64,000 nucleotides of DNA from Candidatus Stoquefichus sp. SB1. Its GTDB lineage: Bacteria > Bacillota_I > Bacilli_A > Erysipelotrichales > Coprobacillaceae. The stretch's first letter is position 1; each line of letters starts with the position of its first letter. Location of the stretch: positions 775,747-839,746 of the forward strand of contig NZ_LN852694.1 in NCBI RefSeq assembly GCF_001244545.1, read 5' to 3'. The notes under the pieces are model-generated. The model ran no database searches. It saw nothing but the letters and a program-made list of their open reading frames with translations, and was not told the DNA's origin. This document shows positions 8,599-32,317 of this stretch, in pieces. Made by a program: the position numbers and the translations under genes.

Positions 8599-9194
8599 AG
8601 ATACATATGATTTATTTAGCGGCAGGAAATAGCCGTCGCTTTGGTTCTAATAAATTGCTTTATGATTTTCATGGTATGCCATTATATCAATATGGTTTTA
8701 ATCAGTTATTGGAATTATTAAAAAAATATGATAATTATACGTTGGATGTTGTAACACAGTATGATGAAATCGTGAATGATATTCAAACATTATCATTTCC
8801 TCGCTTGTCCGTTATAAGAAGTAAAGAGAGTCAGTTAGGATTGTCTTATACAATTCATTCAGGAATAGAAAAATATAAAAATGAAGAGAATAGTTATTTT
8901 CTATTTCTAGTGGCTGATCAACCTTATATTCAATCGAAAACAATCGAATCTATGATTGATAAAGTTCTGCAGCTTCAAGCTCCTCTAGCAACTTTAAAAT
9001 ATCATCAACAATTTGCGAATCCAACAATGTTTCATAGTTGTTTTTATGATGAATTGATGATGTTAAGAGGTGATGAGGGAGGACGTAAGATAATAAAAAA
9101 ACATCAAGATATTTGTTTTGAATTTGTTGTTACAGATGCAAAGGAAATTCTTGATTATGATTGGAAAGATGATATAGATAAACAACTCTTGTAA
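8595..9194 (+). CDS. MocA-like molybdenum cofactor nucleotidyltransferase
   Basis: A 199-residue NTP-transferase of the MocA/MobA-like family. The N-terminal nucleotide-binding motif YLAAGNSRRFGSNKLL and the metal-binding ADQPYI (around residues 111-116) are clear. MocA attaches CMP to molybdopterin to make the dinucleotide cofactor used by xanthine-dehydrogenase-type enzymes, or assists insertion and sulfuration. The start overlaps the large-subunit stop as ATGA, so the protein is coupled to its client enzyme. It is the last gene of the operon and is followed by a terminator. Confidence 0.85.
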   Translation: MKIHMIYLAAGNSRRFGSNKLLYDFHGMPLYQYGFNQLLELLKKYDNYTLDVVTQYDEIVNDIQTLSFPRLSVIRSKESQLGLSYTIHSGIEKYKNEENSYFLFLVADQPYIQSKTIESMIDKVLQLQAPLATLKYHQQFANPTMFHSCFYDELMMLRGDEGGRKIIKKHQDICFEFVVTDAKEILDYDWKDDIDKQLL

Positions 9195-9208
9195 TGGGAG
9201 TTGTTTTT
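9181..9208 (+). terminator. Rho-independent terminator of the Mo-hydroxylase operon
   Basis: AACAACTC and GAGTTGTT form an eight-base-pair stem that includes the stop codon of the MocA-like gene, followed by TTTTT. Confidence 0.85.
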
Positions 9209-9429
9209 ATTTTGTTCATAATTTTTTATAAAATATATAATGATGTCTTAATTTTTTGAAGTTTATAACTTAGAGTATCACAGTTAGGAACTTGTTCTTT
9301 ATAACATCAATTCCATTTTCTTGAAAAAGCCATTGCTTGTGCATTTTAAGACATCTGTGTTTATTTCAAGCATATGAGTGGAAGACTCTTTTTAAGATAT
9401 GTTAGAATGCAATAAAGGATGTGGAAGAA

Positions 9430-11937
9430 ATGTTAATACAAAAAAGAAATGGTCTTTATCAAGACTATGATAGACATAAAATCAAAAATGCTATCTTAAA
9501 GGCATTTAAGAATTTAGATGAAACAATTGATCAATCTCATTTAGAGGATATTTTAAATGATGTTGAAAGTCAGATTCAGGAAAAAACCAGTGTTGAATAT
9601 ATTCAAGATAAAGTTGAAGAAGCTTTAATGGTTCATGGTTATTTACAGGTTGCTAAGGCTTATATTCTTTATCGACAAAGACATCATGAACATAGAGTTA
9701 TTATTGAAAATCTTGTTATGATGTTAAATGATGAAAATATCGAACCTATTTTGACAAAGATTCAACATGATTATCCGCAGGAAGAGTATTCTTTACAGTT
9801 ATTATTGGTAAAGTTAAAAACATTTTATAAAGAGGGTATGAATCAGCATGATGCTTTAAAGATGTTAATGAAAGCAAGTGTTGAATTAATCAGTAAAGAT
9901 GCCCCTGAATGGGAAAAGATATCAGCAAGATTTTTAACTTATGATATTCATCAAAGAATTGATGAAAAAATGATAATGATGGATATTCATTCTTTTTATG
10001 AGAAGTTGGTTTATTTAACAAGAGAGAATTATTATGGTGATTATATTTTAGAGCATTATTCATTTGCACAAGTTCAAGAATTAGAAGCATATATGAAAGA
10101 TGAACGTAATGAAATCTTTACATACAGTGGTTTAGAGTTAATTATGAAACGTTATTTAATTCAAGATAGAAATAGAGATATCTTAGAAAAACCTCAAGAA
10201 ATGTTTATGGGGATAGCAATGCATTTAGCAATGCAGGAAGAAGATAATGTGAAATGGGCAAAAGAGATTTATGATATTTTAAGTACATTAAAAGTGACTA
10301 TGGCAACCCCTACAATGTCTAATGCCAGAAAACCATTCCATCAAATGAGTTCATGTTTTATTGATACTGTTGACGATTCGTTAGCTGGTATTTATAAGAG
10401 CCTAGATAATTTTGCACAAGTTTCTAAACATGGTGGAGGAATGGGACTTTATTTTGGAAAGGTTCGTGCAAATGGCAGCAGTATTAGAGGATTTAAAGGG
10501 GCAGCTGGAGGTGTGATTCGTTGGTTAAGGTTAGTCAATGATACAGCAACAGCGGTTGATCAGTTAGGTGTCCGTCAAGGTGCTGCAGCTGTTTATTTAG
10601 ATGCGTGGCATAGAGATTTACCTGAATTTTTACAGATTCGTACAAATAATGGTGATGATCGTATGAAAGCACATGACATCTTTCCAGCTGTTTGTTACCC
10701 TGATTTATTTTGGAAACTGGCAAAGTGTGATTTAGATGCATCATGGTATATGATGTGTCCTCATGAAATTCATGAAATCAAAGGCTATTATCTTGAAGAC
10801 AGTTATGGTGAGGAATGGGAAAGAAAATATTATGAATGCGTAGAAGATGAACGTATTTCTAAACGTGTGATGTCTGTTAAAGATATTGTGCGATTGATTA
10901 TTAAATCTTTGGTAGAAACAGGAACACCTTTTGCATTTAATCGTGATCATGTCAATCGTATGAATCCTAATGCGCATAAAGGAATGATTTATTGTAGTAA
11001 TTTGTGTAGTGAAATTGCTCAAAATATGAGTGCTATGGAAATTTTGCCTCATGAAGAATTAAAAGTGAATGGTGAAACAATTGTTGTTGAGAAAACCAAA
11101 CCTGGAGATTTTGTTGTATGTAATTTAGCATCACTGACTTTAGGACATATTGATGTGACAAATGATGAAGAATTAAGACATATTATTCATGTTGTGATGA
11201 GAGCATTGGATAATGTTATTGATTTGAATTATTATCCTGTTCCTTATGCAAAAATCACCAATCAAAAATATCGTCCAGTAGGACTAGGGACAAGTGGATA
11301 TCACCATATGTTAGTGAAGTTAGGAATGACTTTTGAAAGTGATGAACATTTACAATTTGTTGATCAATTATATGAAAAAATCAATTATTATGCTTTAGAA
11401 GCTTCATGTGAGTTAGCAAAAGAAAAAGGAAGTTATGAATTCTTTCAAGAGAGTGATTTTGATACAGGAGCATATTTCCAAAAAAGAAACTATCAAAGTG
11501 ATGTTTGGCAATCATTACAAAAGGATATTCATGAACATGGTTTAAGAAATGGTTATTTATTAGCCATTGCTCCAACCAGTTCAACATCTATTATTGCGGG
11601 AACAACTGCTGCTGTTGATCCAATTATGAAGAAGTTTTTTATGGAAGAAAAAAAGGGAAGCATGATTACAAGAGTTGCTCCTGACTTAAATATGAAGACA
11701 TTTTGGTTATATAAGAATGCTCATCATATTGATCAAAAGTGGGTTATCAAAGCAGCAGGAATCAGACAAAGACATATTGATCAATCACAATCAGTTAATC
11801 TTTATATAACAAATGAATTTACATTTAGAAAACTTCTGGATTTGTATATTTTAGCATGGGAAAAAGGTGTCAAAACACTTTATTATGTGCGTAGTCAATC
11901 TTTAGAAGTAGAAGAATGTGAATCTTGTAGTGCTTAG
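9430..11937 (+). CDS. nrdA: Class I ribonucleotide reductase large (alpha) subunit
   Basis: An 835-residue class I ribonucleotide reductase alpha chain. An ATP-cone (residues 1-90, beginning MLIQKRNGLYQDYDRHKIKNAI) indicates allosteric activity control by ATP/dATP. The catalytic barrel shows the redox cysteine in MSSCFI, the thiyl-radical cysteine in NLCSEI, the tyrosine pair in LYYVRS near the C-terminus, and the C-terminal CESC pair that re-reduces the active site. GTG 9421 is open upstream, but ATG 9430 has better spacing from AAAGGA. No nrdI or nrdH is nearby, arguing for class Ia rather than Ib. Confidence 0.92.
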   Translation: MLIQKRNGLYQDYDRHKIKNAILKAFKNLDETIDQSHLEDILNDVESQIQEKTSVEYIQDKVEEALMVHGYLQVAKAYILYRQRHHEHRVIIENLVMMLNDENIEPILTKIQHDYPQEEYSLQLLLVKLKTFYKEGMNQHDALKMLMKASVELISKDAPEWEKISARFLTYDIHQRIDEKMIMMDIHSFYEKLVYLTRENYYGDYILEHYSFAQVQELEAYMKDERNEIFTYSGLELIMKRYLIQDRNRDILEKPQEMFMGIAMHLAMQEEDNVKWAKEIYDILSTLKVTMATPTMSNARKPFHQMSSCFIDTVDDSLAGIYKSLDNFAQVSKHGGGMGLYFGKVRANGSSIRGFKGAAGGVIRWLRLVNDTATAVDQLGVRQGAAAVYLDAWHRDLPEFLQIRTNNGDDRMKAHDIFPAVCYPDLFWKLAKCDLDASWYMMCPHEIHEIKGYYLEDSYGEEWERKYYECVEDERISKRVMSVKDIVRLIIKSLVETGTPFAFNRDHVNRMNPNAHKGMIYCSNLCSEIAQNMSAMEILPHEELKVNGETIVVEKTKPGDFVVCNLASLTLGHIDVTNDEELRHIIHVVMRALDNVIDLNYYPVPYAKITNQKYRPVGLGTSGYHHMLVKLGMTFESDEHLQFVDQLYEKINYYALEASCELAKEKGSYEFFQESDFDTGAYFQKRNYQSDVWQSLQKDIHEHGLRNGYLLAIAPTSSTSIIAGTTAAVDPIMKKFFMEEKKGSMITRVAPDLNMKTFWLYKNAHHIDQKWVIKAAGIRQRHIDQSQSVNLYITNEFTFRKLLDLYILAWEKGVKTLYYVRSQSLEVEECESCSA

Positions 11938-24091: not shown

Positions 24092-25173
24092 GTTTAATAT
24101 CAACATATAATGTTTTGAAATTAAACATTATCATAAGGATAGTCTAAAGGAACGTCGGTTTAATATCAACATATAATGTTTTGAAATGGCTTAACTAAGT
24201 TATTACTTTTTAATATCTTTTTTGTTTAATATCAACATATAATGTTTTGAAATATTTTCATAATTTTCTAAAATTGACTGATAATAAGTGTTTAATATCA
24301 ACATATAATGTTTTGAAATCTCCCCTTTTTAAAAATACTGCCATAAGTCCTACGTGTTTAATATCAACATATAATGTTTTGAAATCAATACATGTATATA
24401 AAAGTTCTAATTTATCAAGGCGTTTAATATCAACATATAATGTTTTGAAATTATGGTTCATCTTACTCTGACCTGTACCTTTAGCCGTTTAATATCAACA
24501 TATAATGTTTTGAAATTTATCAGGATCAATATACTTTAACCACTGAGCCATTTGTTTAATATCAACATATAATGTTTTGAAATCCGTATCTTCGATTTCC
24601 ATAAGTCTTGATACCCATGTTTAATATCAACATATAATGTTTTGAAATCGGTAACGAACAACCCTAATAAATCCTAAGTATCCAGTTTAATATCAACATA
24701 TAATGTTTTGAAATTGGGATCCCATCGGGAACTGTAGCATCTGTTCAAGGTTTTTAATATCAACATATAATGTTTTGAAATAAAATATGATAGAGGATCT
24801 TAAAGCAGCGTGTAATTGTTTAATATCAACATATAATGTTTTGAAATATTTTTAATGAAAATGGTATTACAAAAAATGCTGTGTTTAATATCAACATATA
24901 ATGTTTTGAAATCAACTAATTATACTAATTCTACCATCGTTTAATTTGTTTAATATCAACATATAATGTTTTGAAATTTATCAACACAGCCAATAATCAC
25001 TGGCGTATATATGGTTTAATATCAACATATAATGTTTTGAAATTTTGCCATGTACTAACAATCCACAGAAAGTAAAAGAGTTTAATAGTAATAGAGTTGT
25101 TTTGAAATTAAATTTCAATGAGTTTCATAGACTCTAGTGAAAAAGTTTAATAGTAACAGAGTTGTTTTGAGAT
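24092..25173 (+). CRISPR. CRISPR array: 15 repeats of 30 nt plus 2 variant repeats of 29 nt, 16 spacers
   Basis: Fifteen 30-nt repeats begin at 24092, 24158, 24224, 24290, 24356, 24422, 24487, 24554, 24619, 24685, 24752, 24818, 24883, 24948 and 25014. They start GTTTAATATC, end GTTTTGAAAT and contain the hairpin AACAT-ATA-ATGTT. The copy at 24752 starts with T instead of G. Two 29-nt repeats at 25080 and 25145 share both ends but have another core (AGTAAYAGAGTT). Spacers are 35-37 nt. A 30-nt repeat ending GAAAT fits type I-B or type III. No cas gene is present in the window. Confidence 0.97.
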
Positions 25174-29108: not shown

Positions 29109-29179
29109 AACATTTCCTCCTTTAAACACGCTTTTTTAGGATAACATAATTATTTATAAAAGACAAATAATATATGTAT

Positions 29180-29229
29180 GTGACTTATAGTCCGTTGTTC
29201 TATAGTCAACAAAGAAGTATCTTTATAAT
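29180..29229 (+). promoter_or_regulatory. C-box operator and promoter of a restriction controller gene
   Basis: A perfect GACT-TAT-AGTC palindrome (29182-29192) followed by CCG and a second half TATAGTCAAC (29201-29210) matches the two-operator C-box layout of R-M controller proteins (GACT-N3-AGTC family). A -10 TATAAT (29224-29229) follows, and the -35 region falls inside the right operator and is weak (TATAGT), as expected for an activator-dependent promoter. Transcription would start only a few bases before ATG 29241. Confidence 0.8.
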
Positions 29230-29240
29230 AGGTGATAAAA

Positions 29241-29468
29241 ATGGAAGATATAAAAATAGCTTTTGGAAAAAGAGTCAAAGAATTAAGGTTACAAAAAGGA
29301 ATAAGTCAGGAGAAACTTGCTAATATTGCTGGAGTGGATAGGACTTATATGACTCAAGTAGAAAATGGGAAAAGAAATATATCTATAGAGAATGTTAGAA
29401 AGATATGTATTGCTTTAAATGTTTCTATATCTGATTTTTTTGATGTAAATTATTTAAAGGAGAACTGA
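29241..29468 (+). CDS. Controller (C) protein of restriction-modification type, XRE family
   Basis: A 75-residue single-domain helix-turn-helix protein (FGKRVKELRLQKGISQEKLANIAGVDRTYMTQVENGKRNISIENVRKICIALNVSISDFF). Size and sequence match controller proteins of type II restriction systems (C.PvuII/C.Esp1396I-like), and a C-box lies directly upstream. ATG 29241 is preferred to the upstream GTG because the promoter leaves almost no leader. C proteins first activate and then repress their own gene and the endonuclease behind it. The next gene starts four bases later. Confidence 0.85.
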   Translation: MEDIKIAFGKRVKELRLQKGISQEKLANIAGVDRTYMTQVENGKRNISIENVRKICIALNVSISDFFDVNYLKEN

Positions 29469-29472
29469 ATGT

Positions 29473-30393
29473 ATGATATTTAATCCAAATATTGAAATAG
29501 GTAAAATTATATCTAATGATGAAATTATGAGAATTTTTAAATGTGGAAATATGGGTGGTATGAGAAGGTCTAAGGCAAATGGTGTTTTAGTATTAATTTC
29601 TGATCAAACGAAAAAGTTCTATAAAGATAATTGGAAAGATAATATTTTATATTACACAGGAATGGGGAAAAAAGGTGATCAAGTTTTAAAGGGAAATCAG
29701 AATTTGACTCTCTATGAATCAAATAAAAATGGGGTTGAAATACATTTATTTGAAGTGTTGAAAAAGAAAGAATATACTTATAGAGGTATTGCTCATTTAG
29801 CAGCAGAACCATTTATGGAGAATCAAAAAAATTTTGAAGGAGAAATGAGAAGTGTTTGGATTTTTCCTTTAGAGTTAGAAAAGAAGAGAGTATGTGTATT
29901 AAATGATAGTAAAAGAAATGAAATTAATATCGAATTAGACAATCTTTTAATTGACAAAGAGTTAAATGAAGGTTCGTTTGATATTCAACCTTTTTCTGGT
30001 TATCAAGGAACACCAAAAGCAAAAAAGGAAGCAGTAAAGCAAAATACCTATACTATCTATTATCGAGATAAAAAAGTAGCTTTAAATGCATTAGCTCATG
30101 CAGAATACAAGTGCGAAGTTGATAAAAATCATAAACTATTTATTAGAAAAAATGCAAATATTTTTTATACTGAACCACATCATTTAGTTCCAATGGAATA
30201 TTCTGATCAATTTGATGTGTCGTTGGATATTGAAGAAAATATAATATCACTATGTAGTCATTGTCATAATGAAATACATTATGGGCGAGACAGATTTAGA
30301 TTAATAAAAGATTTGTATGAAATGCGTGCAAAATTACTGAAATCAGTTGGAATTGATATTACTTTAGAAGAATTAAATCAAATGTATAAATAA
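29473..30393 (+). CDS. HNH endonuclease with N-terminal SRA-like domain, probable restriction enzyme
   Basis: A 306-residue protein. The N-terminal ~140 residues (GGMRRS, LVLISDQT, LHYTGMG-like LYYTGMGKKGDQ, YRGIAHLA) match a domain often fused to HNH nucleases and reminiscent of modification-binding SRA-like folds. The C-terminal HNH site has His236-His237, Asn256, His265 and His269, with Cys261 and Cys264 as zinc ligands. AAGGAG precedes the start. It is co-transcribed with the controller gene. No methyltransferase is adjacent, so it may cut modified DNA or be an orphan of a type II system. Confidence 0.82.
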   Translation: MIFNPNIEIGKIISNDEIMRIFKCGNMGGMRRSKANGVLVLISDQTKKFYKDNWKDNILYYTGMGKKGDQVLKGNQNLTLYESNKNGVEIHLFEVLKKKEYTYRGIAHLAAEPFMENQKNFEGEMRSVWIFPLELEKKRVCVLNDSKRNEINIELDNLLIDKELNEGSFDIQPFSGYQGTPKAKKEAVKQNTYTIYYRDKKVALNALAHAEYKCEVDKNHKLFIRKNANIFYTEPHHLVPMEYSDQFDVSLDIEENIISLCSHCHNEIHYGRDRFRLIKDLYEMRAKLLKSVGIDITLEELNQMYK

Positions 30394-30586
30394 GTGTTTA
30401 ATACATTATTTTTTATAAAAATATTGATAAAAAACATGAACTTTTAAATAACATATAAAATTGTTTGAAAAGGAGAGCTCTAGAGAATTTAAATGACTAT
30501 GAATTTAAGTTATTCTATAACATTTATATTTTCTGTTTTTATATAGAATAAATCATTATTTTGTACACCTAGGTAACTAGAAGAAT

Positions 30587-30736
30587 TTATCCACATAATT
30601 TTTTGTTAATTATTATTACATTTACTGATAAATCCAATTGTTTAATATGGGCACCTAGTTTTTCAAGGTAGTAATATACATCTTGATTATAGGTGTTTTT
30701 ATTATGAGGATAAACATAAATTTGAATACCAGATAA
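30587..30736 (-). pseudogene. Short coding relic
   Basis: Read on the minus strand, 49 codons translate to a protein-like string containing IQIYVYPHNKNTYNQDVYYY and LEKLGAHIKQLDLSVNVIII, bounded by stop codons on both sides. The pattern vaguely recalls a BRCT-type strand-helix-strand unit, but this is too short to assign. It has no start codon or ribosome binding site, so it is most likely a leftover of a lost gene. Confidence 0.3.
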
Positions 30737-31087
30737 TTACAATGATGTTACAAATAAAAATAGTTTTTTACTCTATTTACAAGACATTCTTGAGTGAAAA
30801 TAACAATGCAATTAGTACAAAATACATTGAAAAGTGTAGAAATTCAATATAATTATATTGATCAATCTGGACAGTGTTTTGATTTTTTTGTTTTATATCT
30901 TTTATTAAACATGTTTTTAAAAACTTTAACATTCATATCAACACAATCATAAACTTTAACAATTTTTAATCATCATATATCTATGTAATCTACCTATTTA
31001 TTGTGTAATCCTTCCTCTCTTATGATAATGAGATAGAAACATATTCTAATATAGAGATAAATCATTAAAATTTAATCATGTACCATA

Positions 31088-31130
31088 TTGCATTAAGCAA
31101 TTTTATATAGTATAATTTGCTTACAGAAAT
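31088..31130 (+). promoter_or_regulatory. Promoter, first copy of a duplicated promoter block
   Basis: TTGCAT (31088-31093), 17-base spacer, TATAAT (31111-31116). The 25 bases from 31106 to 31130 recur with two differences at 32181-32205 upstream of the macro-domain gene. Confidence 0.6.
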
Positions 31131-31283
31131 GAAATAGGTGTATTCTCTATAAAGAATCTCCCAAGCAATTATTAGTTTTTCTTTATATTGATACTCATAT
31201 CATTATAATTGACTTAGCAATCCCAAGAAATATTGAGAATAATAAATATAAAATAATAACGATGGCATAAAAAGGAGATAACT

Positions 31284-31927
31284 ATGGACGAAAAACTAAA
31301 ATTGTATGAAGAAAAAAATCCTAATCAACTCTCACCACAACAGTTTGACTTGATTAGAAGAGATTTGGAATCAACAAAAGCTACTAAGTCAGATGAATAT
31401 TTTGATTTTATACTTTGGTGTGAGAATATGCCTTCTCGAGGCAAGCTGGATTTCTAAACTATCTTAAGAATATATCATTTCTACAAAAGAATGATCATAT
31501 TCTGGAAGTAGGTTGTGGAACTCAGGCACGACTTTCTGCTTTGTTGAATGAAGAGGGATACAATGTCACATCTATTGATCCAAAACTCAATTTAGAAATT
31601 TGTAAATGGAAAGGCATAAAAGATGTTTTTGACTATCATACATTTGATTTGAATTCATTTGATTGTGTGATTGCACAAGAACCGTGTGATGCAACTGAAC
31701 ATATTGTAAGAGCATGCATGGAAAAGAAGATTCCATTTGTGATTGCACTATGTGCAACCCCTCATCAACATATTGATGGTTACATGGATGATGAAGCTTT
31801 TGACTGGTATACATATCTTTATCATTTAACACAAAATCAATCTAGCCTTCAGTATGTTTCTTTAAGTGAATATTCAATGAATGCAATACTTATATTAACA
31901 CGAGAAAATATAAGGTTGCTAAAATAG
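31284..31927 (+). pseudogene. Frameshifted class I SAM-dependent methyltransferase
   Basis: A gene with a good ribosome binding site (AAAGGAG) starts at ATG 31284 and reads MDEKLKLYEEKNPNQLSP on to a stop at 31455-31457 after 57 codons. The frame shifted relative to it continues the protein as FLNYLKNISFLQKNDHILEV and carries the SAM-binding motif EVGCGTQARLS, motif II SIDPKLN and motif IV FDCVIAQEP, ending at 31927. One insertion or deletion near 31430-31457 would restore about 210 residues. No NPPY/DPPY motif is seen, so it is not an obvious DNA adenine/N4-cytosine methylase. Sequencing error or real decay cannot be distinguished here. Confidence 0.75.
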
Positions 31928-31980
31928 TGTTTATGATATAGAAAAATTTTCATAACAAGTAAACTGATTATAAGTTTTCT

Positions 31981-32025
31981 AGATACAAAAAGCGGATACG
32001 ATGTTCGCTATTTTGTATCTTTTTG
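31981..32025 (+). terminator. Rho-independent terminator
   Basis: An outer stem AGATACAAAA / TTTTGTATCT enclosing an inner AGCG / CGCT pairing is followed by TTTTT. It lies about 50 bases after the methyltransferase pseudogene. Confidence 0.85.
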
Positions 32026-32162
32026 CGTTTTATATTATTTATGATGATTCTATTCTTTTTTGATTTCATAATCCGTTTTAAATTAGAATATTTAACATTA
32101 TTGAAGCATTAATGGAATATTTTTTATTTGTTTCTTAATGTTCTATTTATATCCATAATTCA

Positions 32163-32205
32163 TTGTTTTGGACATAATATTATAGTATAATTTGCTTGTA
32201 GAAAT
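32163..32205 (+). promoter_or_regulatory. Promoter, second copy of the duplicated promoter block
   Basis: TTGTTT (32163-32168), 17-base spacer, TATAAT (32186-32191), followed by the same downstream bases TTGCTT..AGAAAT as at 31106-31130. It probably drives the macro-domain gene 110 bases downstream. Confidence 0.55.
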
Positions 32206-32317
32206 AAGATGATGATAAATTAAAAAGTATGTAAAATGAAATCAAATAGAAAGTAGATATGATAATAATTAGGTGATACAGTCAAAAATATAATATTAAT
32301 GTAAAGTAGGTGATGGC

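Follow-up and report, generated by a model that had tools for sequence, protein, structure and literature searches.

Results

A controller gene and a nuclease gene behind a two-site operator

The window, a stretch of 64,000 nucleotides from Candidatus Stoquefichus sp. SB1, carries on its forward strand a gene for a controller (C) protein of 75 residues (29241..29468) and a gene for a 306-residue SRA-HNH endonuclease predicted to be modification dependent (29473..30393). The nuclease ATG lies four bases past the stop of the C gene and is preceded by the ribosome-binding site AAAGGAG (29456..29462). Both genes lie in a variable cargo segment (29110..32280), delimited by comparison with a sister species, between rfbD and a macro-domain gene.

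The initial annotation took the small XRE gene at 29241 for a C protein, and our searches agree. PADLOC assigned the product to Control_protein (1.4e-24), and among solved structures C.BclI was the nearest relative (1.7e-19), with C.AhdI and C.Esp1396I also among the nearest. C.Esp1396I contacts the bases of its operator through R35, T36, and R46 (PMC4041747), and in an alignment all three residues are kept in the window protein, as DRTY...RN. The gene thus has the XRE/HTH homology, the contact residues, and the upstream two-site operator of its own that mark C genes; no methyltransferase of the same system is linked to it. No C protein was confirmed in viral contigs.

The operator consists of a left site, OL, GACTTATAGTC (29182..29192, forward strand) and a right site, OR, GTTCTATAGTC (29197..29207, forward strand), spaced as in the Esp1396I operator. 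Positions 29182-29207 read GACT-TAT-AGTC-cgtt-gttc-TAT-AGTC, exactly the C-box and second TATAGTC half-site described earlier. The left half of OR is degenerate, with GTTC instead of GACT, and this site occupies the position expected for a -35 element. Within the window, GACT-N3-AGTC-N11-AGTC had its only zero-mismatch match here, and a matrix built from eight genuine C-operators gave the site 39.9 bits, compared to 4.2 bits for the runner-up in the window. Applied to 1.16 Mb of other loci, the same matrix produced only two high scores (35.4 and 28.5 bits), both immediately 5′ of other C-like genes. Of 395 genomes sampled from the class, one contained the exact 26-nt pattern, where it occurred once, in the window, and a scan of viral contigs yielded one match, within an unrelated phage gene. 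A chance match is excluded. When positions 29176-29211 were compared by blastn with 7.3 Gb of plasmid sequence, pEsp1396 was the joint top match, tied with a Klebsiella plasmid (91% gapped identity over 34 nt, E 0.008; 29/34 ungapped), and operators from Shewanella, E. coli, and Photobacterium came next. We inspected the Esp1396I, Shewanella, E. coli, and Photobacterium loci, and in 4 of 4 the operator precedes a C gene with a methyltransferase gene nearby. The two-site layout that had been likened to C.PvuII and C.Esp1396I is therefore present, but its closest resemblance is specifically to Esp1396I.

A TATAAT at 29224..29229 (forward strand) is the probable -10 element of the C promoter, as judged by direct reading; a generic promoter scan of the window did not list this promoter. 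Because the element sits only 12 nt upstream of the ATG at 29241, a nearly leaderless C transcript, as previously proposed, is plausible, and an in-frame GTG at 29232 is another possible start. The right half-site at the expected -35, the TATAAT, the C ATG, and the nuclease ATG are arranged as in a C-R operon of type II.

A reader domain of predicted SRA fold joined to an HNH nuclease

Searches of sequence libraries with the nuclease returned weak matches only, to an HNH domain just under the cut-off and to the AspBHI reader domain. PADLOC matched the protein to type IV enzymes, and a sequence search of the PDB found EcoKMcrA and, barely, ScoMcrA. An AlphaFold2 model built from 34 sequences had a mean pLDDT of 77, with values of about 80-96 in the reader domain and a disordered linker around residues 140-194. 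In a Foldseek search with this model, ScoMcrA was the best match (4e-11), followed by TagI (3e-8) and complexes of the SUVH5 SRA domain with methylated DNA (1e-6). With VIA-align, the reader was closest to SUVH6 (Z 13.5, rmsd 3.1, 137 aligned), SUVH5 (Z 13.4, rmsd 2.8, 132 aligned), and ScoMcrA (Z 13.3), followed by TagI (Z 11.5) and AspBHI (Z 10.4). The N-terminus had been called modification-reader-like, with SRA, EVE, and ScoMcrA folds as candidates; in the predicted model, residues 1-135 (29473..29877) are an SRA base-flipping fold.

The base pocket of TagI is formed by Tyr55, Asp58, and Tyr67 (PMC6212794). A profile alignment placed Asp58 on D52 and Tyr67 on Y61 of the window enzyme, and Y50 was matched to Tyr55 by spacing and invariance only; together with T62, these residues form the predicted pocket. 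Across 34 relatives, Y50 is invariant, and D52 and Y61 are kept in 32 and 33, respectively. We infer that the enzyme is specific for modified cytosine (5mC or 5hmC).

The nuclease domain (residues 196-306, 30058..30390) is of a YTEPHH...CSHCHNEIHYG subtype. In VIA-align it matched EcoKMcrA (Z 10.9, rmsd 3.3, 99 aligned, with 29% identity over those 99 residues). The zinc ligands C214/D217 and C261/C264 are conserved, as are H236/H237, N256, H265, and H269, so that the motif is intact, with a CxxD variant, as in TagI, plus CxxC, HH, N, and H. The protein thus combines the N-terminal SRA fold (in the model), the Tyr/Asp/Tyr pocket, and the intact C-terminal HNH domain of TagI-like enzymes. Its reader is 43-63% identical to the readers of full-length SRA-HNH proteins, whereas the nuclease half shares only 22-30% identity with the corresponding part of those proteins and 41-52% with HNH domains carrying quite different N-termini. 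By these identities, the window enzyme is a new combination of reader and nuclease halves.

Methylases in the window, the host genome, and related loci

The nuclease had been reported to lack a methylase partner, and no window ORF of at least 100 residues contains a DNA-methylase motif; the cognate DNA methyltransferase expected near a type II enzyme was thus not found. The host genome has no C5-methyltransferase (PF00145) by a search whose controls were positive in 10 of 14 genomes. Its other DNA methyltransferases are a prophage-like PF01555 (N4/N6) enzyme, a Dam-like PF02086 enzyme encoded 92 kb away, and a type I HsdM. We collected about 75 relatives of the nuclease from viral contigs, plasmids, and 85k species. 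Far from always accompanying such loci, a methylase neighbor was almost absent from them, the exceptions including an Aerococcus Sau3AI-like locus and a Rhizobium phage. None of the approximately 75 relatives adjoins a C protein, and no further pair of C and SRA-HNH genes was found in viral contigs, plasmids, phages, 85k-species contigs, or genomes of the order and phylum. TagI has been found toxic to Dcm+ E. coli, and the organism that encodes it seems to be without C5-methyltransferases or C5 methylation (PMC6212794); by analogy, this logic of an enzyme toxic to Dcm+ cells in a host lacking C5-methyltransferase would fit the window pair too.

The chromosomal slot

The genus is represented by one further genome, that of the sister species. 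It retains rfbD, as conserved syntenic host DNA, and the macro-domain gene, with 79-85% DNA identity to the window. Between them, however, the sister species (L173, whole stretch) carries 9.7 kb of other genes. These include two C5-methylating type II systems, one comprising an MspI-like endonuclease, a C5-methyltransferase, and Vsr, the other pairing a Sau3AI-like endonuclease with a C5-methyltransferase of its own; FRG-domain proteins and AIPR-like proteins (the last identified by eye) are encoded there as well. As the cargoes of the two species differ, the site appears to be a slot for restriction genes. We would not expect the two cargoes to be compatible, since one makes 5mC and the other would cut DNA containing it; this comparison comprises two genomes.

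The window segment also holds a frame-broken ORF (31284-31927) resembling class I SAM-methyltransferases of the Pfam Methyltransf_11/23 kind. As the sole candidate for a methylase remnant of a type II system, it was rejected as being of the small-molecule type, and a six-frame reading of 30394-32317 found no DNA-methylase remnant in the rest of the segment.

Elsewhere in the window, a CRISPR-like array at 24092-24977 comprises 14 copies of the 30-nt repeat GTTTAATATCAACATATAATGTTTTGAAAT at a spacing of 65-67 nt, and no cas genes for it were recognized among the window ORFs. On the same contig, near the Dam-like gene, lies another CRISPR-like array (L158, about 9129-10719), accompanied by a Cas6-like ORF (by eye).

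Small regulators and Nudix genes at related loci

In L064 and L065, which are among the closest SRA-HNH relatives, a small XRE gene unrelated to the window C gene stands directly upstream of the nuclease gene, at a distance of 11-16 bp (L064 3979-4418; L065 4540-4981). The XRE promoter regions share two conserved palindrome-like elements, GGACC-n6-GGTCC and AAGGACT-n6-AGTCCTT; the latter is perfect in L065, and L064 departs from it at one position. On this sequence evidence, autoregulation of SRA-HNH enzymes seems to recur. As small XRE genes also stand at these other loci, the peculiarity of the window is the C-protein type of its regulator, of which it is the single instance, and not regulation itself.

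A same-strand Nudix (MutT/NudG-like) gene overlaps or adjoins the nuclease gene in 25 of 42 distinct full SRA-HNH loci (L006, L007, L025, L036, L043, L063-L065, L067, and L069-L073 among them), and at 8 of 27 loci encoding the reader alone; the window locus has no such gene. NCBIfam matched these neighbors, mostly below cut-off, to 8-oxo-dGTP and pyrimidine dNTP diphosphatases. They may clear modified dCTP from the pool and so protect the host, and MutT homologues are also known to adjoin SauUSI homologues (PMC7641849). In L078-L098 (e.g., L081 5001-5759), the same SRA reader is fused to a C-terminal domain without nuclease motifs (VGKQVKHKAFGTGKI..., UvrD-tail-like by eye), and a Nudix gene often follows.

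Discussion

That the parts are a C protein with its operator and an SRA-HNH nuclease, we regard as very likely. Taken together, the data suggest a solitary (type IV) restriction module, in which a modification-dependent enzyme that has no methylase has come under captured C-type control; we consider this combined functional reading probable. On DNA entering the cell, the SRA-HNH enzyme would flip out a modified cytosine, either 5mC or 5hmC, and then cut nearby, and its gene would be cotranscribed behind a C protein bound to the two-site operator. In established C systems, C bound at the left site activates the promoter of its own gene, whereas at higher levels it acts from the right site as a repressor, and the nuclease is delayed after entry (PMC12707154; PMC3874152). 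By analogy, C at the window locus would first activate its own promoter from OL and, at higher concentration, shut it off from OR, which overlaps the -35 element, so that the nuclease would reach a late, low, and self-limited level after entry into a new cell. Since the module has no methylase, such a delay cannot serve to let protective marks be added. It might instead allow existing 5mC to be diluted after a methylating cargo has been supplanted by this one, the switch keeping a nuclease that would be lethal to any 5mC-bearing genome off until the old marks are diluted and capping its level afterward; alternatively, the loop may merely cap the level.

The initial annotation had left open whether control was captured in this way or whether the locus survives from a broken type II system. 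Under the latter explanation, a C-R pair lost its methylase and persisted since its nuclease no longer works or does no harm. The C-R order and spacing do match those of type II systems, and BclI-like plasmids have a divergent methylase at the place taken here by rfbD, but rfbD is conserved host DNA in the sister species. The frame-broken ORF in the neighboring segment could be read as the lost partner, yet it resembles small-molecule methyltransferases and has no DNA-methylase motif. Moreover, SRA-HNH enzymes are of a kind that needs no methylase, and the catalytic and pocket residues of this one are intact. Captured control accounts for the locus much better, given the SRA fold, the absence of a host C5-methyltransferase, and the methylase-poor relatives, although the timing itself is extrapolated from known C systems; we hold a broken type II system to be very unlikely. 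Still less credible is a type II enzyme served by a cognate methylase from another part of the genome. The Dam-like PF02086 gene and the prophage-like PF01555 gene would be the candidates, but each belongs to another gene cluster, no GACT-N3-AGTC was seen beside either, relatives of the nuclease go without methylases, and SRA readers bind modified bases.

A further explanation concerns the origin of the control. The C gene could derive from a chromosomal lineage of C-like genes within the family that is free of restriction, instead of from a type II system, making the nuclease another XRE-autoregulated enzyme under homeostatic control, with no timing. In a tree, window C grouped (99/96) with C-like genes from G008, G018, and G026, all of them genomes of its bacterial family. 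These genes have C-box-like operators, two of which share GTGACTTATA(G/A)TC(C/A)GTTGTT with the window, and they lie upstream of desulfoferrodoxin genes; for about 7 kb around them there is no restriction gene. C-type regulators thus also occur outside restriction-modification in this family, and C control need not imply restriction timing. The unrelated XRE genes and conserved palindromes of L064 and L065 likewise favor simple homeostasis. However, the tree rests on few columns and has long branches, the full two-site window operator is nearer to that of Esp1396I than to those of the family genes, two of which have no right site, and C.BclI outscored the family genes in phmmer. On balance, we think this origin unlikely. 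The C-like regulators directly upstream of desulfoferrodoxin genes (L196 6881-7138, L197 6901-7179, and L198 6878-7144) may represent C-type control put to another function.

Within the captured-control reading, the slot may be occupied in turn by 5mC-producing islands and by an enzyme that destroys 5mC-bearing DNA. A newcomer replacing a 5mC-making island would enter a still-methylated genome, and the C delay, perhaps with bistability, would let the marks dilute. We offer this only as a tentative idea, with the balance of probability clearly against it. If it is true, C-protein timing would be used here to await the loss of modification, not its gain.

C proteins are usually explained by the need for the methylase to act first. 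A C-controlled enzyme without a methylase separates this rationale from the circuit and would let the activator-repressor loop alone be probed for delay, level control, or bistability. A switch known from ordinary restriction systems would serve another purpose here, without a protecting partner enzyme. Our comparisons also suggest that small autoregulators often govern modification-dependent enzymes, which are commonly regarded as unregulated, and a single chromosomal site links such enzymes to competition with systems that methylate cytosine. All the parts are of known families; their combination is new relative to the literature searched. That literature, which was incomplete, contained no paper on C control of a type IV enzyme. 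The sections available of a 2025 review tie C proteins to type II systems and one type I locus and do not describe a combination of C and SRA-HNH (PMC12707154).

Among known systems, the window enzyme resembles the type IV enzymes TagI, ScoA3IV, and TbiR51I in its N-terminal SRA and C-terminal HNH domains and its pocket Asp and Tyr; with TagI it also shares the CxxD zinc-site variant and, as in the TagI group, a host without C5-methyltransferase. Unlike these three, it stands under a C protein, its HNH domain is of a subtype otherwise paired with other N-terminal domains, and its SRA domain belongs to a KCGNMGGMRRS family of Bacillota. ScoMcrA, the best Foldseek match, likewise has an SRA fold followed by HNH, but the window enzyme is without its further N-terminal domains, including the sulfur-binding domain. 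EcoKMcrA shares the HNH domain and differs in its reader, and we know of no C protein for it. As in defense islands regulated by RptR and BrxR, the window nuclease appears to have dedicated transcriptional control, although those regulators differ from window C in protein family and operator. BrxR islands include self-modification or antitoxin parts. The same is true of RptR islands (PMC12255303). From the systems of C.Esp1396I, C.BclI, and C.PvuII, the window locus differs in having no methyltransferase gene, and it shares with them the fold family, the contact residues, a two-site operator with Esp1396I spacing, and the C-R order.
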